Origin: Fluviicola chungangensis
GTDB lineage: Bacteria > Bacteroidota > Bacteroidia > Flavobacteriales_D > Crocinitomicaceae
DNA length: 64,000 bases
Reading direction: 5' to 3'
NCBI RefSeq assembly: GCF_007558725.1
Contig: NZ_VLPL01000007.1
Location: 1-64,000 of the forward strand
Position 1 is the stretch's first letter. The number at the start of each line of letters is the position of its first letter. The notes beneath the pieces were generated by a model, which was not told the DNA's origin, did not search any database, and saw only the letters and a list, made by a program, of their open reading frames with translations. Shown piece after piece: positions 47,399 to 59,223 of the stretch. The position numbers were made by a program, and so were the translations under genes.

Positions 47399-48392
47399 TA
47401 GTTTTGTGTGTTTTTTTGGTCTAATTACCGTTACAGTAACAGATAACAACGGCTGCCAGGGAACAAGCCCTTCCGTGAATGTTACTTCCGTTGCCCAAAT
47501 TGTAACCAATTCCACTGTTTCGATTTGCCAGGGACAGAGTGCCGTTATTCACGGCATTTCCCAATCAACTGCAGGAGTTTACAGTCAGACTTTCCAGTCA
47601 TCCGGAGGTTGCGACAGTATTTCAAATGTGACATTGGTTGTAAATCCGGGTCCCAATCCGGTTATTACAGGAAATCTTTGGTATTGTGAAGGAAATCAAG
47701 CTACACTTGATGCAGGAGGTCCGTATGCAAGTTACTTCTGGAGTATCGGCGGGAATCAGCAAACGATCCAAACAACCAGTTCGGCTCCTATTACAGTCAC
47801 TGTAACTGATGCAAATGGTTGTTCAGCGACCAGTGCGGCGGTGAATCTGATCGCTCCTCCGCTCGCAGTTGTTGATGCTACCCCTTCAACAGGAACTGCA
47901 CCATTGGCAGTAAACTTAACGAACGGAAGTCAGAATGCGACTGTCTATCATTGGTATTTCGGAAACGGAACGGATTTGACAACAGCGAGTATTAACAGTC
48001 AATCCCAGACATATGACAGTACCGGACAGTACACCGTCATACTAGTTGCTTCATCCCAATTTGGTTGTTCTGATACCGCTTATGTCACCATTGTGGTGGT
48101 GGAACCGAACCAACCAATGATTATTGATTTCCCGAATATTTTCACACCGAACGGCGATCACAACAACGATTTCTTTGAATTTGCAAGTTCTAATGTAGCC
48201 TCACTAGAAGTGATTGTGACCAATCGTTGGGGGAATTTAATGTTCAAATCCACGGATATCCATTTTCAATGGGACGGTACCATGCCGAATGGAGAACAAG
48301 CTTCTGAGGGAGTTTACTTTTACCAGTATAAAGTAACCGGCATACTTGGTGAGTACCTGGAAGGACAAAAATTCGTGCATTTGGTCAAATAA
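47399..48392 (+). pseudogene. 5'-truncated T9SS type B cargo protein (gliding-motility-type C-terminus)
   Basis: The open part (47406-48392, 328 codons) has no signal peptide and begins in the middle of a beta-sandwich repeat (LITVTVTDNNGCQGTSPSVN). It continues with similar SICQGQSAVIHGI and YCEGNQATLDAGGPY modules, a PKD-like domain (TPSTGTAPLAVNLTNGSQNA, YHWYFGNG), and ends with an intact type B sorting domain (FPNIFTPNGDHNNDFFEFAS, VYFYQYKVTGILGE). The only possible start is a GTG at 47406 overlapping a TAGTTTTG promoter box (47399-47406). Best read as the 3' remnant of a large secreted adhesin-like gene that lost its signal peptide by deletion. If expressed, it could not reach the T9SS. 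Confidence 0.75.
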
Positions 48393-48448: not shown

Positions 48449-48582
48449 TTTTTGGTTTCTAAAAAGGTTTGTAAACTCAATTTTGATTAAAAAATAATCA
48501 AAAATATTATCCGTTAAAACACTAATAAAACTGGGTATTTTTGAAAAAAGATTATTTTTTAATCAATTTTTATTCAAAAAAA

Positions 48583-48614
48583 TTTGGCAGATCGAAATAA
48601 ATTTTTTATCTTTG
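48583..48614 (+). promoter_or_regulatory. Strong promoter for the paralogue-cluster operon
   Basis: TTTG (48583-48586) and TATCTTTG (48607-48614) with a 20-bp spacer are an excellent match to the Bacteroidota consensus. Upstream is a very A/T-rich run (48480-48580) with repeated ATTATTTTTTAATCAA-like stretches, which could act as an UP-like or DNA-bending region. The leader before the GTG at 48685 is about 65 nt. Confidence 0.75.
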
Positions 48615-48684
48615 TAAGGTAGCAAGTTCAGAAAAGGACTTATTGCACAAACAACCTTAATTATTAACCATTATAAATCGAATC

Positions 48685-49743
48685 GTGAAACGAATTATCA
48701 TCCTTTCCGTTGGTACGGCGACTCCAAAAGTTATCAAAGCAATTTCCGAAGCTTTTGAAATCAACCAGGAGTTATTATTCAAAATTCTTTACAATGCGCC
48801 TGCTGTCTTTTTGGACAATGCAGAAGAAGCGCTGGCAGAAAAAGCATCTACTATTTTAACAGAACTCGGGCTGGAAGTTTTGATACAAAGTACAGATGAA
48901 GAAGTACCTCTGCCTACAGAATCCCTGGATCTTTCCGTACACATCAATGATCCGGTGAAACTAAGCACCGTTAACAAACAGCTGTCTGAATTTCTGGGCT
49001 GCAATGAAAGTGAATCTCTGCAACTTTTGCTCAATGAACCAAGTGTGGTTTTGGGCGGAGTATCTATGGCCACCGCAGAGAGCTTGCAAAAACGCATAGA
49101 TGCTGAAGTGATTGCAAGTAACCCGAAGATGGATTTGTACACCATTGAATTCACCGCAGAATCAGAAAGCGACCGCTTAAAGTTAATTAACCTCATCGCA
49201 AACCAGGAAATCACCATTCCTAAAGGAGAAACAAAATGGGTTCGCAACTTAACCTACGAACAAATGAACCAGTTTCTCACACGCCACCGATCAAAGCATG
49301 AGGTTAAGATCTACAATCAGAGTTATGCCAGGTTTCGTATTCTCCTGGAGAACTTTGACCTGACGAACACTTCCCAAACCGAATTTTTGGTAAACGAAAT
49401 CGGCATGCCGGTGGAAGTGCTCGCAGAAATCCACACCAATCTACCTGTTTTACTGGATGAATCTGTCAACTACGGAATACTTCAGGAAAAATTAGCCTGG
49501 TATAAACAGGCCGGTTTAACCTGTTCCGAAGAACAGATCCCATTCGGAAAGTACGTCATCTCAGTAAGTAACATTACCGATTCTGGAAAAGCACGGGAAA
49601 TCCTGAGCAAATTTTACAAAGATGTCAATTTAGACAAACTCACTGATGTCTGGAAAGCCCCAATGCCCCTCGGTGGTACTGTGAGCAGACTACTTGAAAA
49701 ACAGCTGGAAACTATTGGGTGTGAAATTGAATACGAATACTAA
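48685..49743 (+). CDS. Protein of five tandem L7/L12 C-terminal-like domains
   Basis: 352 residues from GTG at 48685. It divides into about five ~70-residue units with a beta-alpha-alpha-beta-alpha-beta pattern: strand, hydrophobic helix, LLFKILYNAPAVFLDNAEE-type segment, helix, strand. The same order recurs in LQLLLNEPSVVLGGVSMATA, and VLAEIHTNLPVLLDES and LTDVWKAPMPLGGT in later units. This resembles the C-terminal domain of ribosomal protein bL12 (helix, AP-V-L turn, helix, AGL-strand). Unit 3 is the most degenerate. No signal peptide. It heads the operon; a role as a modular binding platform is inference. I know of no named family with this arrangement. Confidence 0.6.
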   Translation: MKRIIILSVGTATPKVIKAISEAFEINQELLFKILYNAPAVFLDNAEEALAEKASTILTELGLEVLIQSTDEEVPLPTESLDLSVHINDPVKLSTVNKQLSEFLGCNESESLQLLLNEPSVVLGGVSMATAESLQKRIDAEVIASNPKMDLYTIEFTAESESDRLKLINLIANQEITIPKGETKWVRNLTYEQMNQFLTRHRSKHEVKIYNQSYARFRILLENFDLTNTSQTEFLVNEIGMPVEVLAEIHTNLPVLLDESVNYGILQEKLAWYKQAGLTCSEEQIPFGKYVISVSNITDSGKAREILSKFYKDVNLDKLTDVWKAPMPLGGTVSRLLEKQLETIGCEIEYEY

Positions 49744-49748
49744 CCACT

Positions 49749-50306
49749 ATGAACGAACACAAACCAAACCTCCATCTCCAAATCGCTGAAAACGGAAAAG
49801 TACTCGCTTTAAGAGGAGATCACAAAGAAGCATTACGCCATTATAAAGAGGCCATGCGCATGTGTCAAACAGCCGATAACTCAGAAGTTTTCCTGCAGCA
49901 TTACAGTTTGTGTGCCATGGAATCCCTGGAAATGATGGAGGCACACGAAGAAATCATCACTTTTTGCGAAAAAAGCATCGATTTCCTGACACCTAAAAAG
50001 GCCGAACGAACAGACGATTGGTTCAGGAAAAACCTCGCATCCCTCTGGGAACGGAAAGGAATCCAGTGCATCTACCTGGATGATAAAGAAGAGGCGATAG
50101 AAGCTTTGGATTCTGCACTCAAGGAGGCAAAAAACTTGTCTATGCCCTTGAGTACGGAATTACTAAACTGGCTTCGAAGAGGCTATGCAATTACTCACCA
50201 AAAAGTGCGTGATTTACAAATCAAACATCACTACTTTACTGTTCGTAAGGAGAATGTCAACGAAAAAATAGCAGTGCAACTGCCGGAAATGATCAATCCG
50301 TTCTAA
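49749..50306 (+). CDS. TPR-like helical protein, 185 aa
   Basis: It begins five bases after the previous stop. Residues ~8-45 (IAENGKVLALRGDHKEALRH, then YKEAMRMC) form a TPR unit, ECSL-type helices follow, and a second repeat (IQCIYLDDKEEAIEALDSAL) lies near residues 115-140. It ends with a basic, aromatic tail. No signal peptide. It probably binds a partner protein of the cluster; which one cannot be told. The cluster's structured intergenic RNA follows directly. Confidence 0.65.
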   Translation: MNEHKPNLHLQIAENGKVLALRGDHKEALRHYKEAMRMCQTADNSEVFLQHYSLCAMESLEMMEAHEEIITFCEKSIDFLTPKKAERTDDWFRKNLASLWERKGIQCIYLDDKEEAIEALDSALKEAKNLSMPLSTELLNWLRRGYAITHQKVRDLQIKHHYFTVRKENVNEKIAVQLPEMINPF

Positions 50307-50315
50307 CAACGTTTT

Positions 50316-50438
50316 TTACGAGATACAGGTAGCCTTATTTGTGCGCACAAATAATTATCCGCCTGAAACCCATCACCAAAAATGAACGGGACAAACCGGT
50401 TACACCCTCATTTGACGGATGCTGCCTGTATTTCGTAA
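50316..50438 (+). ncRNA. Structured intergenic leader (18-bp outer stem)
   Basis: TTACGAGATACAGGTAGC (50316-50333) pairs with GCTGCCTGTATTTCGTAA (50421-50438) over all 18 positions if two G-U wobbles are allowed. Inside are a perfect palindrome TTTGTGCGCACAAA (50338-50351) and ATCCG (50358-50362) pairing with CGGAT (50416-50420). It lies 9 bp past the TPR-gene stop and ends 24 bp before the ATG at 50463, so it could be a processing site, an attenuator or a leader element that sets expression of the downstream paralogues. Confidence 0.6.
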
Positions 50439-50462
50439 GAAACATTAAAAAACAATTAATTT

Positions 50463-52307
50463 ATGAGTGATTTAACCAAATTCAGTGAAGGAGCTTCCAT
50501 TCTGCAGCAGGTTGATGTCAGCGACATCTTTACAAACCTTGCGATGGGAATTGCGGAAGCTCAACAGAAACTAGATGACAATTCGATAGCACAGGCTATT
50601 AAATTGGCAGAAACTAACATCGACGGTGAATCCTTGTTGTCTTTAGGATTTGCTCCTGTCTTTTACGCATTCCAGTATGCAGACATCAGTGCCAGTATCA
50701 GTTTGAGAATGGGCCTGAAAGAAGCTCTGGAATTCGGATTCGGAATCGATGTCCAATTGGCCAACCAAAAAGGGTACTCTGCTTCTAACCGCGATTTTTT
50801 AAGTTCAAACAGCTATTCCGAAACTTCGGAAGAATACAAATCTGTGAGACAACTAAACTTTCGTGCAAAGGAAAAAAAGGCGATCAAGATCAACAACAAA
50901 TTTGTCAGCCAAAGCGAGTTTCTTGATTCGAAAAGCCGCCTGGAGGATTTCAAACACAAGATCAAGACTGAAGCATCCGTTGACCAGGTCTATGAAGAAA
51001 TCCAGTCCAGAAAACTTACCGAAAACAACAGTCTTGGAGTAGATGTTTGGATGGACGGAGGCTTTGTTCGAATTGAAAAAGGCTTGCATTTCGGAACTAA
51101 TGGAGTTGGAATCTTGAAAATCAAAGATTTTTACACCGCAACTTCTATTGACGTGGACGGAGGTACACCGAACGGCTTTGCTTTGGCAACAGCTTTTTCA
51201 AGTACATTTTTGGAAGATGCCGTTACAGGATCAGGAGGAGCAACCGTTTATGCGATTACAAAAACAGGAAATTTGTATGCAAAGTACGGTCCCAACTGGG
51301 TAGAGGTTTCAAGCAACCTTTATTTCGGATACAACAGTGATGAGATTACTTACGGTAAAAACCTGAAGGACGGACCAAATGATTCGGCTGACCTTCTATA
51401 CACTTATCCGGGGCCAATTGTAGCCAATCCTAATCAAAACCACGATCAGCACCCGTTAATTCACAGAGTGCTTCGTTTGATCCAAAGCCATGATTCAGAT
51501 GCATCGATTACCATTACCGGAATGACAGATCCGAAAGGCGGAAACAATCCGAAGAACAGAAGTTTGGCGAAAAGACGTGCTGAAAAGCTGTGTGGTCATA
51601 TCTTCGGATCTTCAGCTCCAGTCAATGTAGGAATTGGTGCGGTAACCAATGCAGCCGGTGCCAGCGATTTGCTTCTTCGTCAAGCTACAATCGAATTGAA
51701 TGCCGATTACATGATCTTTATTGATGGTAACACGACCAAAGACGCAGCTCCTGAAAAAACAAGCAGTGGACCAAACAAATTTATCTATGCAGATGATAAA
51801 GGTATATCACCTACCAGTACTTTCATTACATTGGATGTTCAGTATGGTGACATTTCCTTAGTTTCAACCAATGCTTCTTTCAGCACAATTTTGAGTGAGG
51901 CTCAGGCACTAATGTCCAACCATTCACACGAAGAAACTGCTGAAGAACTTCACTACTCCCTGGACAACGAAGCAATTGTCAAATTGCATTTGCTTTCCAA
52001 TGCGGCAGAGGAGATTTCCATTGAAGAGAATTCGGAAAGCGGCAGTGAAGGTAGTGAAAACCAAAGTTCTTACCTGTGGGCGAAAACCAAGAAAGAAAGT
52101 GCTGCAACAAGCGAAAGTTCAAGTAACAGTACACAAAGCAAATCATTTGCTTTCGGAGCCAACGTGGATTTCAGAATGTCCCGCCAGTTTGAAATGTCGA
52201 TGGAAGGAAACTCTGCCATGTCAGCACGATTGGTTTCACTTCCTGCACCTGAAAACTTCCTGAACTACCTGAATACCAAATACGGAAGTCAGACTACGGA
52301 AGAATAG
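50463..52307 (+). CDS. Large cluster paralogue with OmpA-like domain inserted, 614 aa
   Basis: Family parts at the ends: an N-terminal helix (VSDIFTNLAMGIAEAQQKLD, residues ~18-37), a strand pair (SLLSLGFAPVFYAFQYADIS, ~59-78), and a C-terminal strand pair (ANVDFRMSRQFEMSMEGNSA, then RLVSLPAPENF, ~565-600). Between them is a ~450-residue insertion containing an OmpA-like domain: SNLYFGYNSDEITYGKN, SITITGMTDPKGGNNPKNRS and LAKRRAEKLCGHIFG. There is no signal peptide or lipobox, so the OmpA-like part may not meet peptidoglycan in the usual way. An S/N/E-rich spacer precedes the last strands. Largest member of the paralogue set and probably a principal structural subunit; function unknown. Confidence 0.6.
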   Translation: MSDLTKFSEGASILQQVDVSDIFTNLAMGIAEAQQKLDDNSIAQAIKLAETNIDGESLLSLGFAPVFYAFQYADISASISLRMGLKEALEFGFGIDVQLANQKGYSASNRDFLSSNSYSETSEEYKSVRQLNFRAKEKKAIKINNKFVSQSEFLDSKSRLEDFKHKIKTEASVDQVYEEIQSRKLTENNSLGVDVWMDGGFVRIEKGLHFGTNGVGILKIKDFYTATSIDVDGGTPNGFALATAFSSTFLEDAVTGSGGATVYAITKTGNLYAKYGPNWVEVSSNLYFGYNSDEITYGKNLKDGPNDSADLLYTYPGPIVANPNQNHDQHPLIHRVLRLIQSHDSDASITITGMTDPKGGNNPKNRSLAKRRAEKLCGHIFGSSAPVNVGIGAVTNAAGASDLLLRQATIELNADYMIFIDGNTTKDAAPEKTSSGPNKFIYADDKGISPTSTFITLDVQYGDISLVSTNASFSTILSEAQALMSNHSHEETAEELHYSLDNEAIVKLHLLSNAAEEISIEENSESGSEGSENQSSYLWAKTKKESAATSESSSNSTQSKSFAFGANVDFRMSRQFEMSMEGNSAMSARLVSLPAPENFLNYLNTKYGSQTTEE

Positions 52308-52332
52308 TATTCACCTATTAAATTCCTAGTAC

Positions 52333-52794
52333 ATGCCAGCAATTGAAACAATAACAAGCACGCTAACGAACTCCCCGCTTTCGTCTATGATCGAAAACAT
52401 GGGACTTTCAATAGCAACAGCGCAAGCGGCGTTAGACAGCAATTCCATCGAAATGCTCAAGAAAATCGCTTCCAGCACCGTGGAAATCGGGGGAAATCAA
52501 ATCAGCCTGTTAAACCTAGGTTTTGTTCCCAGTTTTTACGCTTTTACGGAAGCAAGCTTCGATGCAAAAATGGATTTTGCCATGTCAGAATCGACTGCTT
52601 TCGATGTGAATGGCGTGGTTTCAGTTGAAACACAGGTGGTTTCGACTACCGTCAGTGCAGGTTACGCACGTAAATTTGATCAATCCGCTTCGGCTTCTTC
52701 GAGTATTGCGGCCCGCATGGTTTCACTGCCTCCACCCGAAAACCTCGTTACACTTCTGAAAAATTTAAGCTCAGAAGGAAACACAACAACGTAA
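52333..52794 (+). CDS. Minimal cluster paralogue, 153 aa
   Basis: This is the smallest member and shows the bare family architecture: LSSMIENMGLSIATAQAALD helix (residues ~17-36), SLLNLGFVPSFYAFTEASF (~57-75), a beta region, and VSAGYARKFDQSASASSSIA then RMVSLPPPENLVTLL (~112-147). Comparison with its neighbours defines the three conserved blocks. No signal peptide or membrane segment. It follows the 614-aa gene by 25 bp and shares its closing motif (RLVSLPAPEN / RMVSLPPPEN), so it is closest to that protein. Function unknown. Confidence 0.6.
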   Translation: MPAIETITSTLTNSPLSSMIENMGLSIATAQAALDSNSIEMLKKIASSTVEIGGNQISLLNLGFVPSFYAFTEASFDAKMDFAMSESTAFDVNGVVSVETQVVSTTVSAGYARKFDQSASASSSIAARMVSLPPPENLVTLLKNLSSEGNTTT

Positions 52795-52821
52795 TCTTTT
52801 AATCAACAAAAACAACAAAGT

Positions 52822-53709
52822 ATGTTTGAAAACACCAAACCACGCATTGGTCAGGAACTTCTTGACGTGCCTATGGGCGACATGATTCGCCAAATGGCTT
52901 TTGCAATCGCAGAAGCACAAATTGTTCTGGATCAGAACTCTATCGATGTAGCCGAAATGATGGGCGGTTTAACAACCGTTACGGATGAAGAAGGAAATGT
53001 TACTTTCCACGACAGCCGGGTATATTTCGGAACCGAAGATGTATCAAGAGCCGAGGCTATTGCACGACACAATAGCACAGTAAACATCCAGCAAAAAGCT
53101 GAAATCAGAACATTGTTGGATACAGGCTACTCACCAGCAATGGTTTCTGTTCCAGTAGGCGGTTTCACTCCTGGATCCACGAAACTTTTAACAACTGAAT
53201 ACATTGATTTCCAAGGATTTTATTATGTAGGTAACGGAACCGGAGCTCTTGATGCCCCAGCAAGCCAGGTATCTTATGGAGATTTGAAAATTGCTTCAAC
53301 AAATACAACAACAGATTCTACGACTATCTTAAAACTTCCACGCAGAATTTCCATGTTGGAATGTGGTTTCACCCCGACATTCTATCAATTTGTTGATACG
53401 ATCATTGAAGTGAAAATTTCCATCCGCTATACGCAGGAAGGATCTACCAACAGCGCTGTAAATAACAATTTACGATCAAGTGCGGCACGAATTGGCTTTG
53501 GATTAGGAAGAATCAAATTCGGACGATCCGTTCAAACCACACAGGTGAACGCCAGCTATGCTCAGAAGTACAGCTACTCTGCTGAAGGATCGAGTTTGCT
53601 TCGCACCAAATTGGTACCGATTCCTGCCCCTGCAGTTCTGGAACAGCGTATCCAGCGATTGATGGAGGAAGAGTTTAACAACACAACGCCACCGCAAACG
53701 CCGGCATAA
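52822..53709 (+). CDS. Cluster paralogue, 295 aa
   Basis: The family helix is VPMGDMIRQMAFAIAEAQIV followed by LDQNSID (residues ~12-38). An ~130-residue insertion rich in beta (FHDSRVYFGTEDVSRAEAIA, TTEYIDFQGFYYVGNGTG) is followed by MLECGFTPTFYQFVDTIIEV (~182-201) and the closing strands VNASYAQKYSYSAEGSSLLR, TKLVPIPAPAVLEQRI. No signal peptide. Its terminal strands are nearly the same as those of the next gene (182 aa), marking a recent duplication pair. Confidence 0.6.
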   Translation: MFENTKPRIGQELLDVPMGDMIRQMAFAIAEAQIVLDQNSIDVAEMMGGLTTVTDEEGNVTFHDSRVYFGTEDVSRAEAIARHNSTVNIQQKAEIRTLLDTGYSPAMVSVPVGGFTPGSTKLLTTEYIDFQGFYYVGNGTGALDAPASQVSYGDLKIASTNTTTDSTTILKLPRRISMLECGFTPTFYQFVDTIIEVKISIRYTQEGSTNSAVNNNLRSSAARIGFGLGRIKFGRSVQTTQVNASYAQKYSYSAEGSSLLRTKLVPIPAPAVLEQRIQRLMEEEFNNTTPPQTPA

Positions 53710-53715
53710 TTAACC

Positions 53716-53744
53716 CCGGGCAGCTGTCAAACCGGCAGCTGCTC
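53716..53744 (+). promoter_or_regulatory. Intra-operon hairpin
   Basis: GCAGCTG (53720-53726) pairs with CAGCTGC (53736-53742) around a 9-nt loop in the 59-bp gap between two cluster genes. There is no T-tract after it, so it is more likely an mRNA-stability or processing hairpin than a terminator. Confidence 0.5.
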
Positions 53745-53768
53745 TATTAACCCTTAATCAATAAGCTT

Positions 53769-54317
53769 ATGATAAATGTTGGAAGAGAGTTATTAAATGC
53801 TCCGTTTCCTGAATTAGTTCGCACGCTTGGTGTAGGGATTGCCGAGGCTCAATATGCTCTCGATCGTGTTTCTATCAAGATCGCGCAATTAATGGCGGGA
53901 TTTAAACTAAATGATGAAGGAAACCTGGAACGGGATGAAAATTCCCTGATCAAACTCAGGGAAAATGATCCCGGAGTGAGTTTGCTTGCTCTCGGTTTCA
54001 CACCTACATTTTACCAGTTCGTAGAAACATACATTGAACTCAAATTGGCTATTTCCATGAAAAAAGAAGAAGAAGTTAGCGCTGAATCTTCTGTCGGAGG
54101 CGTTGCCTGGTCACCGTTTGGTGTAATTGCGGCCTCTGTGAACGCAAGTTATTCACAGAAGTACCAATACGAAGCAAGCGGGAGCTCCGAAATGCGCACC
54201 AAACTCGTAACGGTTCCCGCTCCGGCCATGTTTGAAAGCCGTTTGAAACAATTGATGGACGAAAAACAAATCGAGACCATTCAGTCAGAAATGCCTGAAG
54301 AGGAAAATGAAATTTAA
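53769..54317 (+). CDS. Cluster paralogue, 182 aa
   Basis: Helix FPELVRTLGVGIAEAQYALD (residues ~9-28), SLLALGFTPTFYQFVETYIE (~75-94), closing strands VNASYSQKYQYEASGSSEMR and TKLVTVPAPAMFESRLKQLM, then an acidic tail (MPEEENEI). It is the clearest close relative of the 295-aa protein upstream but lacks its insertion. No signal peptide. The compact size makes it a good reference for the family fold. Function unknown. Confidence 0.6.
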   Translation: MINVGRELLNAPFPELVRTLGVGIAEAQYALDRVSIKIAQLMAGFKLNDEGNLERDENSLIKLRENDPGVSLLALGFTPTFYQFVETYIELKLAISMKKEEEVSAESSVGGVAWSPFGVIAASVNASYSQKYQYEASGSSEMRTKLVTVPAPAMFESRLKQLMDEKQIETIQSEMPEEENEI

Positions 54318-54342
54318 TACCAACCTATTCTAAAACAAGATT

Positions 54343-55416
54343 ATGACAAAAAGCTGGAAAAAACTCGTCAAAACCACAGATTTTGATTCCAACACAGCAA
54401 GCGAAAACTCTTTTAGTAATATCCAATTAACGCTGGACGAACTTGCAGCGCAAAACCAGGAATTGGACCATTTGTTGAAGGAACGCCAGTCTTTGGAAAA
54501 TGAGATGGGCAATTTGCTTCAATCGAATAATCCTGTAGAAGAAAATCCTCGGTTCACCGGCACTATCGAATCGTTTAAAAGTAAACGCGAGAAAGAAAAA
54601 AAAAGAGCCGCTCAGAAGAAAAAACTCGAAGAGCGGCTCTTAAAAAAAAGCAAAGAACTGGAGAAATGGGAAGAAAATCAGGCCCGCCTGAAAGAAAAAC
54701 TTGCCCTTCAAAGGAAATCTTTGTCTAAAAAAGAAACCGAACAAGATCCTTCAACCAGCCTAAAAGCACCGAAATCAACAAAAAACAGTTCTGAAAAACG
54801 TTGGTTTGATACCAATACTATCCGGAAAAAGAAAGATGTAATAGAAAGAGTGAAAAAAGTGCCAACCGAACAAATAAAGAAGGTAAAACAGATCCCAGAA
54901 AAAATCAGGGAATTGAAACCCTCTTTCGATCTGTTCGGACAGAAGGATCTTGTGAAGTTTCAAAAGAAACTGGATCAGGAGAAAAAAACTGCAGTAATTC
55001 CTACTCAGGTTCGCAAGATAAAAGATGATTGGGACGAAAAACGTGAGGCCGCGAAAGCAAAACTGAAAGAAAAGATCCACCTGAAAAAACTGGAAGAAAA
55101 ACTGGAAGAAACCAAACGGTTTGGTCAGTCTGTGAAAGCAGCTGTCAATGACTCAATCGGATCACTCGAATCTAAAGACCCTCAAATTAAGGAAATGACC
55201 GACAAACTCAAAAAAGAATTGTCTATGGATGATCGTCAAAATAACCTTTCTGAAAATGCTTCTGCCAAAAAAGCAGAGCAAAAAGAAGCGGAACAAAAAG
55301 ATACGGAACGCAGAGAAAAACTGAAAGAACGATTTCTATCCAGAAAAAAGGCCGAACAAAAAGAAGAAAAACGGTCAAGTAGAAAAAAAGAACGCAAAAA
55401 CGAAAAATACATTTAA
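54343..55416 (+). CDS. Highly charged coiled-coil protein, 357 aa
   Basis: Nearly the whole protein is K/E/R/Q-rich heptad-like helix (LDELAAQNQELDHLLKERQS; EEKRAA-type stretches; KLKEKIHLKKLEEKLEETKR; AEQKEAEQKDTERREKLKER), with a basic tail (RKKERKNEKYI). A ~50-residue segment in the middle (KRWFDTNTIRKKKDVIERVK) is less repetitive. No signal peptide. It sits among the paralogues and ends two bases before the next start, suggesting fixed stoichiometry. Likely a scaffold, tether or nucleic-acid-binding rod; that is inference from composition. Confidence 0.6.
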   Translation: MTKSWKKLVKTTDFDSNTASENSFSNIQLTLDELAAQNQELDHLLKERQSLENEMGNLLQSNNPVEENPRFTGTIESFKSKREKEKKRAAQKKKLEERLLKKSKELEKWEENQARLKEKLALQRKSLSKKETEQDPSTSLKAPKSTKNSSEKRWFDTNTIRKKKDVIERVKKVPTEQIKKVKQIPEKIRELKPSFDLFGQKDLVKFQKKLDQEKKTAVIPTQVRKIKDDWDEKREAAKAKLKEKIHLKKLEEKLEETKRFGQSVKAAVNDSIGSLESKDPQIKEMTDKLKKELSMDDRQNNLSENASAKKAEQKEAEQKDTERREKLKERFLSRKKAEQKEEKRSSRKKERKNEKYI

Positions 55417-55417
55417 A

Positions 55418-56095
55418 ATGAGTTCAACAACAACCACCACCAATTCGCTGGCCCTGCATGAAATAGTTCTCAGCATCGCGGACAGTTTGAATGAAGCGCA
55501 GGAAACCTTGCGCAGTGTGCCTCAATATGATGAATACGGCAGGCCAAACACCTTATATCAGCTTCCTTACCTGGATTTCAACCTGGAAGTGATCTCGCAA
55601 TTCGAAACATCCCAGACAGGCGGAAATACCGCCGGTGGAAATGCCATTCGCTTCATCCCGTTTCGAAGCACAGAGACAACAACAAAGAACCAGGGCATTG
55701 TTACCAGCAATATTTCCGGACGATTTGTCGCGGTTATGCCCAATGAAGGATTGCCTCAAATTTCCCTGAACGGAATAGTTAAACTGGTTGAAGCCAACAG
55801 CGATTATGTCCTGTATTCGATCGCTGTCCAGGCACTTCAACCAAACGGAGAATGGGTTATCGGCCAACGAATTGAGATCAACTTCGACGAAGCCACCTCA
55901 CTGGACCTCAACTCCAAAATTCCTGTCATAGTACCCAGCTTCATCGGTTCAAAAGATGGCTTTACCAGACCGGACGACGGATGTGTTTATGTACAGGTTA
56001 AACTGAAAACCTCTGATTATGACGCAGGAAGGACCTTCGTCTTTAAAGCCAATAGTGGAACACAATTTATGTCAATCGCAATTAGTAAACCATGA
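55418..56095 (+). CDS. Diverged cluster paralogue, 225 aa
   Basis: It keeps the family start in weaker form (LHEIVLSIADSLNEAQETLR, residues ~13-32), then YLDFNLEVISQFETSQTGG and NISGRFVAVMPNEGLPQISL. The C-terminal ~120 residues are a separate beta domain (IVKLVEANSDYVLYSIAVQA, VYVQVKLKTSDYDAGRTFVF). The GF.P.FY block has become LPYLDF. No signal peptide. Its ATG lies one base after the coiled-coil stop, and its stop overlaps the next start (ATGA). Confidence 0.5.
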   Translation: MSSTTTTTNSLALHEIVLSIADSLNEAQETLRSVPQYDEYGRPNTLYQLPYLDFNLEVISQFETSQTGGNTAGGNAIRFIPFRSTETTTKNQGIVTSNISGRFVAVMPNEGLPQISLNGIVKLVEANSDYVLYSIAVQALQPNGEWVIGQRIEINFDEATSLDLNSKIPVIVPSFIGSKDGFTRPDDGCVYVQVKLKTSDYDAGRTFVFKANSGTQFMSIAISKP

Positions 56096-57009
56096 TAGAT
56101 TTCAATTATTTTATTTTAAAGCTGAAGCTTTATACCGGGACAAATGATTTAGCCGAGAATTTTGCGGCGAGTATTCAATACTACAGTTTCGTGGATTCAG
56201 ATTGGATCACCGTTTTCGGAGGTAATACCAAGAGTGGTTTTTTGGTTGTCAACCAGGAAGTCAGAGATGCCAATTCAACTCAGGCGCTCTTTTACGATTT
56301 GATAGCACAGGAAAAACTTCCTCCGATGCGTATTATACCTGACGCACCACTCTCTCCTGATATTACCAAACAGCCCGTTATCGGAAGTTCCTTTACATTC
56401 AACCTGGAACCAGTAGACGGAATGATCGCTTTCGAAATCGATTTCGGTACCTTGTATATGATCCCGAATGAATTAATCCTCGATTCAAGCAGCGCATTCG
56501 CAGATATCCTGCCTGTTGCCAATTATTTCCCTGTAACCGTTACAATACCTGAACCAGCGGTACCACCGATTCCAATCCAGGATTTGTATACGAATCTCGT
56601 CTCTGAAATTGCAGCAGCAAGCCAAACATCAAGTGAGTCCCCATTTAAACTATCCAATATTTCAGTGAAACTGAAAGCATTGGTCCATGGAGACGGCGAG
56701 TCATTAAGCGCTTCCTTGCTGAACCTTGAAAATTCCGAAAATGTGAATGGAGAAGCAATCAGTGAATTGTTCTTTGACATCACTCCTGTTCATAATCGGG
56801 AAAACTTAAGTATCAGTATGCCGGACGTGATGGGCTTAACCGAAACTGCGGTCAGAAGAATTCTGAAAAAAGCCGGCTTACGTTTGAACCCGGTTTACCA
56901 GAAAAAAGAGAGCGTTGTGAACGGCGACTCGTTCAAGCAATCCCCGCTTAAAGGAATCAGCGTTCAACCAAATCAATTAGTAACCGTAATTTTTAGTAAA
57001 CATGAGTGA
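56092..57009 (+). CDS. Cluster protein ending in a PASTA-like domain, 305 aa
   Basis: The first ~150 residues are beta-rich and unassigned (YFILKLKLYTGTNDLAENFA). Residues ~165-245 resemble the family core (LYTNLVSEIAAASQTSSESP, FKLSNISVKLKALVHGDGES, ELFFDITPVHNRENL). The last ~65 residues match a PASTA domain (MPDVMGLTETAVRRILKKAG, then NQLVTVIFSKHE). PASTA domains usually sit outside the cell on kinases and penicillin-binding proteins and bind cell-wall fragments, but this protein has no signal peptide. It overlaps the next gene by 8 bp. Confidence 0.6.
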   Translation: MIDFNYFILKLKLYTGTNDLAENFAASIQYYSFVDSDWITVFGGNTKSGFLVVNQEVRDANSTQALFYDLIAQEKLPPMRIIPDAPLSPDITKQPVIGSSFTFNLEPVDGMIAFEIDFGTLYMIPNELILDSSSAFADILPVANYFPVTVTIPEPAVPPIPIQDLYTNLVSEIAAASQTSSESPFKLSNISVKLKALVHGDGESLSASLLNLENSENVNGEAISELFFDITPVHNRENLSISMPDVMGLTETAVRRILKKAGLRLNPVYQKKESVVNGDSFKQSPLKGISVQPNQLVTVIFSKHE

Positions 57010-57682
57010 TACAAATAACCCCATTCAATTATTCAGTGAACTGCTGGGTAGCCCGTTGGGCGAATTAATCAGTTCAGTTGGCCAGGGAGTCGGCGATGCA
57101 CAGGCAGCTCTTGATCAGGGAGCACTTCAGCAAACATTGGACATCTATGATTTCAGCAAAGACAGTGAACGTTCCAATGAGGAATTAAACCTCATAAACC
57201 TGATTCGGGAAATGGGATACCAACCCACCTTTTACACCATTCCCGAAACAGAAGTGGAAGCACAAATTTCCCTGTCGCTGGACCTGAAATCCGAGCAGTC
57301 TGCTCCGACTTCCGGCTATACACTTTCCAAGTATAAAATCAATGCCACCCCGCTAAACGCAGGAAATATGAACCGGTATGGCCTACAAGCCAATGCAATG
57401 GCCAAACTGAAGTTTAAAATCGTTCCTGTTCCACCTCCGCAAGGCAGCGGAGAGCTTCGTCTTATTCCGGATTTCAATGGAAAATCCTGGGACGAAACAA
57501 CGAAAGCATTGATTGAAAATCTGGGCTTCATCTACGAATTAAGAGATGACTCGAACAACGAAGTGATAGCGGACGAAGAAACAGTTTTGAATCTTCCTAT
57601 CTCTGGCCAAAGTCCGGCTTACGGAACAGTGTCCAGGATCGGAAACCTGATTGTTCTTCAGATCACCACCACTGAGATCTAA
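57002..57682 (+). CDS. Cluster paralogue ending in a PASTA-like domain, 226 aa
   Basis: Family blocks: LGELISSVGQGVGDAQAALD (residues ~18-37), IREMGYQPTFYTIPETEVEA (~66-85), and MAKLKFKIVPVPPPQGSGEL (~132-151), equivalent to the RTKLVPIPAP strand. It then runs directly into a PASTA-like domain (LIPDFNGKSWDETTKALIEN, then GNLIVLQITTTEI). No signal peptide. Last gene before the terminator at 57693. The shared helix and closing strand show that this PASTA-bearing protein belongs with the other paralogues. Confidence 0.6.
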   Translation: MSDTNNPIQLFSELLGSPLGELISSVGQGVGDAQAALDQGALQQTLDIYDFSKDSERSNEELNLINLIREMGYQPTFYTIPETEVEAQISLSLDLKSEQSAPTSGYTLSKYKINATPLNAGNMNRYGLQANAMAKLKFKIVPVPPPQGSGELRLIPDFNGKSWDETTKALIENLGFIYELRDDSNNEVIADEETVLNLPISGQSPAYGTVSRIGNLIVLQITTTEI

Positions 57683-57692
57683 TCTTCAGGAG

Positions 57693-57731
57693 AAATTCAG
57701 GATACGAGAAGATCCCGTATCCTGAATTTTA
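57693..57731 (+). terminator. Terminator ending the paralogue operon
   Basis: AAATTCAGGATACG (57693-57706) and CGTATCCTGAATTT (57716-57729) form a perfect 14-bp stem with a 9-nt loop. The tail is TTAATC rather than a long T-run, so termination may be partial. Confidence 0.75.
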
Positions 57732-57770: not shown

Positions 57771-58760
57771 ATGCACAAGCTCAATATTACGACTACTATT
57801 TTCGATCAAGTGGCGGAAATAAACAGTCAAAAAGAATACTGGTATGTTCGTACCGACGGAGGAGAGCATTATACCGATTTTGTTCAAAATGGATACATCG
57901 GAATTAATTGGAATTTCATTTCTGCTTCTGATATCCGGGAAGAAAACCTGCAATATCTCCGAAAATCAATCATCACCAACAGTTATAAATACAGAAAAGT
58001 TCCCTACGATAAATTAGGAGCCGGAGAAAAATCGTCGGTAACCAAAACCATCAACAAACTATTTACCTTTCAAAACCTGAAGAAAGGTGATGTGGTGCTC
58101 ATTCCCTCTGAAGAAGCGGATCGTTTCAGTATCGGTGAAATTGCAGACGACGAAATCTATACTGTTTCCGAAAAAGAGACATCAACCGGTGTATTTCTTA
58201 AAAGACGAAAAGTAAACTGGCTGAAAACTTCCATTCAACACCCTTATTACAATTCCCTGTTTTACTTATTAAAACATTCACACACCATTGTCTCCATTAA
58301 AAAATATGCCGATTTCATTGATTCCATCATGGAAGAATTGTACATCAAGGACGGTGATTGTTTTTTATCCCTGAGAATCAACAAAGAATCGGAAATCAGC
58401 TTGAAAGACCTGAAGGATTTATTTGACAATTACCTGGGACTTATCTCGAAAGTAAACAACGATTTCAATTTCGGAGAACAAATCGATACGACCACTGTGA
58501 AACTGAGTTTAAATTCTCCGGGATTCATCAATATCAAATTACCCGTTGGAAAATCTCTGATCGTAACCAGTTTGATCGTTTCTATGTTTCTGAACGGTTG
58601 TTCCAATGAAGAAATCAGCATGAAAATCAATCGCGAGAACATTCCGACAGAGTACATTCCATACATGGATTCCATCCAAAACATCCGGAAAAACCTGGAA
58701 GTGGAGAACGACTCGATTTTTAACCGTTTAACAAATCAGGACCATGGAAACAGCAAGTAG
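57771..58760 (+). CDS. PUA-like (restriction-system-type) N-terminal domain protein with membrane segment, 329 aa
   Basis: Residues ~22-140 follow the pattern seen at the N-terminus of Mrr-like restriction proteins: YWYVRTDGGEHYTDFVQNGY then IGINWN, KKGDVVLIPSEEADRFSIGE, and FLKRRKVNWLKT. That fold (PUA/EVE-like) typically recognises modified nucleic acid. Residues ~240-290 hold SLNSPGFINIKLPVGKSL followed by a hydrophobic segment (IVTSLIVSMFLNGCS), giving a possible membrane anchor. No nuclease motif is visible. The last 17 bp overlap the next gene. Its link to the cluster upstream, across the terminator, is positional only. Confidence 0.6.
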   Translation: MHKLNITTTIFDQVAEINSQKEYWYVRTDGGEHYTDFVQNGYIGINWNFISASDIREENLQYLRKSIITNSYKYRKVPYDKLGAGEKSSVTKTINKLFTFQNLKKGDVVLIPSEEADRFSIGEIADDEIYTVSEKETSTGVFLKRRKVNWLKTSIQHPYYNSLFYLLKHSHTIVSIKKYADFIDSIMEELYIKDGDCFLSLRINKESEISLKDLKDLFDNYLGLISKVNNDFNFGEQIDTTTVKLSLNSPGFINIKLPVGKSLIVTSLIVSMFLNGCSNEEISMKINRENIPTEYIPYMDSIQNIRKNLEVENDSIFNRLTNQDHGNSK

Positions 58761-59223
58761 TTTTTTAGCATCGGGAGACAACGTCTTCAAATTCCTGTTG
58801 ACCATGTGTATCGGAACCATTCTGTTCAACATCGTGTACCCGACTGATAAGATCCGGGAGCTTGAAATTCGGAGAAGCGAACTGAATTACAAACTGGACA
58901 TCATAAACAATGACTCCAGGAAACTTTTTGAAGAGGTGAAAAAGCTAAAACGGATAGAAGATAACCTGGCGGATAAAGCAGTCTCCTATCCGGCCGGTTT
59001 CATGAAAAAAGTGGAATCATTCGATTTGAAATACGAGTTGCTCACAAAGAAAGATTATGAGATCAAACACCTGCGAAAACTGATTGCCATTTCCGAAGAC
59101 GAACTGGAGTTCTATTCCGGTTTCCGGTTCTGGAGTTATTATCCTTCCATGGTGATCGGGTTATTGTCTTTGATCTTTTGGATTAAGTTTTATGTGAAGA
59201 GCCTGGAAAAAGAAGAACATTAG
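58744..59223 (+). CDS. Membrane-anchored coiled-coil protein, 159 aa
   Basis: A hydrophobic segment at residues ~13-32 (VFKFLLTMCIGTILFNIVYP), a ~90-residue charged helical/coiled region (IRELEIRRSELNYKLDIINN, KLFEEVKKLKRIEDNLADKA), and a second hydrophobic segment near the end (YYPSMVIGLLSLIFWIKFYV). No family was recognised. The start overlaps the PUA-like gene by 17 bp, so the two are coupled and probably interact at the membrane. Confidence 0.6.
   Translation: METASSFLASGDNVFKFLLTMCIGTILFNIVYPTDKIRELEIRRSELNYKLDIINNDSRKLFEEVKKLKRIEDNLADKAVSYPAGFMKKVESFDLKYELLTKKDYEIKHLRKLIAISEDELEFYSGFRFWSYYPSMVIGLLSLIFWIKFYVKSLEKEEH

Follow-up and report, generated by a model that had tools for sequence, protein, structure and literature searches.

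A recurrent ten-gene cassette of diverged paralogues in Fluviicola chungangensis that may encode a multi-subunit assembly

In this study, we analysed a 64,000-nucleotide stretch of the Fluviicola chungangensis genome (Bacteroidota; contig NZ_VLPL01000007.1, positions 1 to 64,000; hereafter the window) and found that ten plus-strand genes at 48685-57682, which are separated by mostly short gaps or overlap, constitute a single operon. The same ten-gene cassette recurs in distant bacteria and matches no system in the searched family libraries and papers, and it therefore probably encodes a new multi-part assembly. The original prediction, made from the sequence alone, had described an unrecognised operon of diverged paralogues with swapped accessory domains. 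That description was upheld by profile comparison, by 58 complete cassettes with identical gene order, and by the lack of any meaningful match in Pfam, NCBIfam or PHROGs for the window's A614, B153, C295, D182 and E225 (proteins are named in Table 1); the open reading frames (ORFs) it named all exist and have the lengths it gave. We give not quite an even chance to the fuller reading, in which six or seven paralogous helix-plus-hairpin subunits with wall-binding domains make up a new class of bacterial particle or nanomachine that bears no relation to contractile, gas-vesicle, encapsulin or secretion systems and is encoded as a ten-gene block in four phyla or more, a further four having partial or divergent forms.

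The shared core and its accessory domains

Paralogy was assessed with hhalign, using profiles built from relatives, small ones and then deep ones, and all E-values from it are those of single comparisons. The five to seven proteins originally proposed to share ordered blocks proved to be five firm paralogues, A614, B153, C295, D182 and G226 (E 5.2e-11 to 5.7e-65), and two weak ones, E225 and F305, so that seven of the ten cassette proteins have the core. The closest pairs were C-D (5.7e-65), B-D (2.2e-49) and B-C (5.7e-35), followed by D-G (4.7e-27), C-G (5.2e-23), A-B (1.1e-20) and A-D (4.9e-19), with A-G the weakest of the firm pairs. E225 matched the core of G226 at 3.7e-6, and a segment in the middle of F305 matched E, B and D at 2.5e-4, 2.7e-4 and 3.7e-4, respectively, against 0.38 and 0.36 for the TPR and L12 controls. 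Because these are single-comparison values, the sequence evidence that E225 and F305 bear weaker forms of the common core is suggestive rather than certain.

The core begins with a helix at the N-terminus and strand 1, continues with a stretch rich in Ser and Thr, and closes with strand 2, which ends in VxxPxP, and a C-terminal helix. Among 84 relatives of B and D, the residues P12, Q28, D32, L75, G76, F77, P79, F81, Y82, S140, P150 and P152 (D182 numbering) are invariant, and no catalytic-looking set was seen among them. The AlphaFold2 model of D182 has a long helix, strands at 81-93 and 138-149, and a C-terminal helix, with a mean predicted local distance difference test score (pLDDT) of 73 and residues 97-136 below 50. 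In the A614 model, the core strands (67-86 and 575-593) lie one at each end of the large insert, with low confidence for 77-100 and 544-586. When alternating hydrophobicity was scored over the best 24-residue window, the value for A was reached in none of 2000 shuffles and that for G in 5 of 2000, and those for B, C and D were reached in 39-62 of 2000; the L12 and TPR controls showed no such strand. An amphipathic strand pair of this kind would suit completion by neighbouring subunits in an oligomer. Searches with the D182 core using Foldseek and VIA returned no significant match (lowest E 1.1, highest Z 2.2), a result that does not imply a new fold because the model is partial; Bizionia C24 gave a match to 6ov6 at E 1.7.

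Accessory domains are evident around the core. In A614, the helix and strand 1 are N-terminal, strand 2 and the second helix are C-terminal, and an OmpA/Pal-like domain lies in the insert between them. The OmpA-like domain that had been proposed was confirmed by Pfam matches in 42 of 44 A relatives, by a comparison of A with Pal structures (9.4e-21) and by matches of the window A614 model to the Pal/OmpA fold (VIA Z about 11 over 97-100 residues), A614 itself having no Pfam OmpA match. Of the diaminopimelate-site residues, Asp356 is kept in 42 and Arg372 in all 44 of the 44 relatives; this Asp and Arg are known from OmpA and Pal structures to bind peptidoglycan. A614 therefore resembles Pal and the OmpA C-terminal domain in its fold and wall-site residues, but differs in that the domain interrupts another one and belongs to a protein that lacks a signal peptide.

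The PASTA-like modules proposed for the 305 and 226 aa proteins were likewise recovered, that of F305 at 2e-7 (31.3 bits, above the Pfam cut-off of 23.2) and that of G226 at 1.4e-4 (22.1 bits, slightly below it), with matches in 43 of 46 G relatives and a value of 2.4e-11 for G226 against PknB PASTA structures. As in PknB-type kinases, a single PASTA domain lies at the C-terminus of F and G, but neither has a kinase or a transmembrane segment. Relatives of F have a long coiled coil in between their domains and are up to 1546 aa in length. The C-terminus of E matches Big_1 in 15 of 49 relatives (best 1.4e-6), the window E225 being unmatched; this Ig-like end was not part of the original prediction.

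The remaining assignments also held. The L7/L12-like repeat protein (gene 1) matched Pfam L7/L12 at 0.0016 in the window copy and in 21 of 45 relatives, matched 1ctf at 4.6e-6 and contains internal repeats (r1-r4 8.5e-11, r1-r2 1.1e-9, r1-r5 4.1e-6). Its repeats are like the L7/L12 C-terminal domain, but they occur at least four times in tandem and outside any ribosomal operon. The TPR protein (gene 2) matched TPR_2 at 2.7e-7. Four cassette proteins carry domains usual outside the cytoplasm, one of them keeping its wall-binding site, and no recognisable signal peptide or membrane helix was found in the cassette products, nor any 19-residue hydrophobic segment in relatives of the TPR protein, A-D, ROD, F and G.

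Distribution, gain and loss of the cassette

One pattern-based scan of 84,980 species genomes identified at least 142 stretches encoding relatives, and the counts given here for loci refer to the best 80 of the 142. Six-frame ORFs from those 80 loci were scored against profiles that were rebuilt in two rounds and enlarged from the same loci, for which reason the identification of the fast-evolving ROD gene depends partly on its position. All ten genes were present in 59 of the 80 loci, in every case on one strand and over spans of 8.5-10.9 kb, with 58 in the canonical order; the lone exception (L127) probably reflects a start that was extended too far. Of the remaining 21 loci, most are cut by the end of a contig and a few represent divergent forms. 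According to record titles, complete cassettes occur in Bacteroidota, Pseudomonadota, Myxococcota and Gemmatimonadota. A Latescibacterota contig has eight genes in order and then ends, and partial or divergent forms are found in Acidobacteriota, Verrucomicrobiota and Chloroflexota. In a quick tree of five concatenated proteins, Bacteroidota and Pseudomonadota form largely separate groups, and Gemmatimonadota and Latescibacterota stand beside Halomonas. This topology fits some transfer between phyla, although metagenome bins may be wrongly assigned.

Within the genus, the cassette is present or absent as a block. It occurs in seven of 14 genomes, including that of the window, and in one genome of another genus of the same family. 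In four cassette-free congeners (G006, G010, G012 and G013), histidine kinase and regulator genes adjoin an rfaE-like gene, separated from it by no more than one or two unrelated genes, and in G001 the cassette occupies that same gap. No flanking genes conserved across phyla were found.

Several variant loci were also observed. Short forms with two core genes in tandem occur in L152 (2293-5658; Chlorobium-like, with an added coiled-coil gene), L153 (478-1538) and L145 (9643-12422), and are possibly ancestral or reduced versions. Plasmid carriage of the cassette was considered and set aside, as the one plasmid found, the Sphaerotilus plasmid of L145, has a short form. In five divergent cassettes (L137, L139, L142, L103 and L112), a shorter core protein that lacks the OmpA insert stands at the A position. 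Finally, the record CP034120.1 (L069; the same place as L013 / G003), titled Glaciecola amylolytica, looks mislabelled because its cassette has Fluviicola flanks and nests within Fluviicola in the tree.

Operon layout and neighbouring genes

The features of the operon are given in Table 1. The claim of one strong promoter and one terminator stood in part: the promoter, which we take to be of the Bacteroidota type, is conserved in six relatives, and the terminator is plausible but unproven because its hairpin has only a short T tail. The palindrome TGATTA-N5-TAATCA has two matches in the window against 0.36 expected, and both lie upstream of the promoter. An additional feature not in the original prediction is a 156-nt structured RNA element in the gap from the TPR gene to A, which has 32 consensus pairs, eight of them with two-sided change among six relatives, and no Rfam match. 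This element may cause the structural genes to be expressed at a level different from that of the first two genes.

Table 1. Features of the cassette operon in the window
Feature	Position	Strand	Description
Candidate operators	48484-48500, 48549-48565		Two 17-bp palindromes, conserved in six Fluviicola
Presumed Bacteroidota-type promoter	48583-48614	+	TTTG-N20-TATCTTTG
Gene 1	48685..49743	+	352 aa; at least four L7/L12-C-terminal-like repeats
Gene 2	49749..50306	+	185 aa; TPR protein
Structured RNA element	50307..50462	+	Genes 2/3 intergenic; fold z -5.4; covariation
A614 (gene 3)	50463..52307	+	Split core; large insert with OmpA/Pal-like domain at about residues 283-413
B153	52333..52794	+	Bare core
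C295	52822..53709	+	Core; insert separating helix from strand 1
D182	53769..54317	+	Bare core; reference for structure prediction
ROD357	54343..55416	+	Charged, coiled-coil-like; poorly conserved sequence, fixed position
E225	55418..56095	+	Putative divergent core; candidate Big_1-like Ig domain
F305	56092..57009	+	N-terminal domain; putative reduced core (about 157-235); C-terminal PASTA
G226	57002..57682	+	Core; C-terminal PASTA
Terminator-like hairpin	57698-57724	+	9 bp; weak or short T tail; listed by the scan on the minus strand only

The cassette is followed at 57771-59223 by two genes (329 and 159 aa) that have no Pfam match and that are kept in six of the seven cassette-bearing Fluviicola, being absent in L010. 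It is preceded at 47406-48392 by a gene encoding a C-terminal 328 aa with PKD and CHU_C type IX sorting domains; as relatives are 888-1508 aa and it appears to lack its start and signal peptide, it is probably a remnant.

Nature of the assembly and its relation to known systems

Our preferred explanation, which we hold tentatively and at somewhat less than an even chance, is that the cassette encodes a hetero-oligomer of helix-plus-hairpin subunits that is made in the cytoplasm without signal peptides and displays wall-binding domains. The paired amphipathic strands of adjacent subunits would join into a common beta sheet, in the form of a ring, tube or filament, with B, C and D as its bare subunits and A, E, F and G as decorations. 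The L7/L12-like repeat protein and the TPR protein would act as assembly factors, and ROD357 and the coiled coil of F would set length or spacing. Such a particle, built in the cytoplasm, would meet the cell wall on crossing an envelope, which could be that of the producer or of another cell, or after release. The multi-subunit cytoplasmic or unconventionally exported assembly of the original prediction remains an inference, but is better supported because the genes stay together as a block, because the core has no catalytic-looking residue set, and because wall-binding domains occur in products without signal peptides or membrane helices. Paralogy, the 58 ordered one-strand cassettes and the empty sites in four congeners all speak for an assembly, as do the amphipathic strands, the predicted placement of the A strands at both ends of the insert, the conserved wall-binding residues and the absence of 19-residue hydrophobic segments noted above.

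Several points weigh against this explanation. Nothing in the cassette, or conserved in its vicinity, was found to encode an export route, a sheath, an ATPase, a holin or a toxin. The hairpin tip has a pLDDT below 50 in both the D182 and A614 models, the amphipathic-strand signal of B, C, D and E is modest, and DUF2589 lacks the pattern. In addition, a crude rule for signal peptides flagged 15 of the 71 A relatives; because their 19-residue hydropathy stays low, we read the flagged segments as a conserved amphipathic helix.

The closest known family is DUF2589 (PF11655), to which the original prediction had noted a faint resemblance. D182 matched it colinearly over its full length (hhalign E 8e-5, probability 61%) and the B profile found DUF2589 proteins at 1.4e-4 and 8e-4. 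The two are alike in having a helix, a strand, a Ser-rich middle and a closing strand, and DUF2589 genes are often tandem paralogues. However, the DUF2589 Pfam model matched none of the ten window proteins at E up to 1 and none of the 84 B and D relatives at 0.1, and none of nine DUF2589 loci had the cassette, so that the resemblance amounts to distant similarity and not to membership. The sole strong match of a cassette profile at those loci was that of the A profile in L149, 5 kb away, which is probably an ordinary OmpA-domain protein. DUF2589 was not found in the window's genome and occurs in three of 18 cassette genomes, the two being independent in their occurrence. On these sequence comparisons, the core and DUF2589 likely share a common origin, and membership is not claimed. 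The little that is recorded of DUF2589 includes the up-regulation of AF0414-AF0417 on lactate (PMC3949148).

A second and weaker link is to Trypco2 (PF19631), a small adapter found beside trypsin-like peptidases in ternary conflict systems (PMC7159879), which like the core has a helix plus two strands. In a comparison that drew on three Trypco2 domains, it matched E225 relatives at 2.6e-4 (controls: TPR 0.42, L12 0.16), and PF19631 weakly matched four of 49 E relatives (best 0.0039, below the membership cut-off) and none of the window copies. The core is thus perhaps distantly like Trypco2, mainly via E225. If so, the cassette could be a cytosolic conflict or defence scaffold whose wall-binding domains sense wall fragments or damage and then signal, an explanation that the patchy distribution would also suit. 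We regard it as unlikely, since the ten products include no NTPase, nuclease, nucleotide cyclase, MoxR/vWA or peptidase, trypsin-like or other, the flanks are not shared across phyla, Trypco2 occurs in just one of 35 cassette genomes, and PADLOC gave only a match of the PASTA region of F to PD-T4-6, on which basis a known anti-phage defence system was rejected.

Two other explanations are less probable still. The long strands alternating hydrophobic and small polar residues, clearest in A, B and G, would suit a hetero-oligomeric beta-barrel pore or needle with one long amphipathic hairpin per core, as in aerolysin-like pore formers, but we consider this quite improbable given that the core has no significant structural match to solved proteins, that signal peptides are absent and that the hairpin tip is poorly predicted. 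Alternatively, the intact Pal-like site and PASTA domains would suit the producer's own wall, and no release gene is present, as would be expected if the cassette products built an envelope-linked scaffold within the producing cell itself, A, F and G then being brought to the wall non-classically. We doubt this strongly, as no export signal or membrane anchor was found and presence or absence of the block among congeners fits an accessory function better than housekeeping.

Extracellular contractile injection systems and tailocins are cytoplasm-built multi-gene particles with wall-binding parts, and are comparable to the cassette only in how they work. Membership of either was not supported, as no sheath, tube, spike, baseplate or ATPase families were found in the ten products (Pfam, NCBIfam, PHROG). 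A domesticated phage structural module is very improbable: the cassette does have many small structural-looking genes in fixed order, and in one relative the coiled coil of F resembles a tape-measure profile (probably a coiled-coil match), but searches of 50,697 phage records and of 2.9 million viral contigs returned no match, head, tail and portal families were absent from the ten products (PHROG), the PHROG matches of A relatives lie on the OmpA region, and A614 matched no viral structure below 0.1.

The hetero-oligomer with wall-binding domains is thus the explanation we prefer, and we found no description of the gene set in open-access PubMed Central, although accounts elsewhere are possible. 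The preservation of a ten-gene order across four phyla, with related forms elsewhere and with core proteins that are absent from Pfam, NCBIfam and PHROGs, points to a bacterial function that has yet to be explored. The cassette also places DUF2589, on which very little has been published, in a wider structural and genomic context, and the occurrence of the cassette in cultured hosts such as Caulobacter, Halomonas, Kordia and Tenacibaculum makes it testable now.

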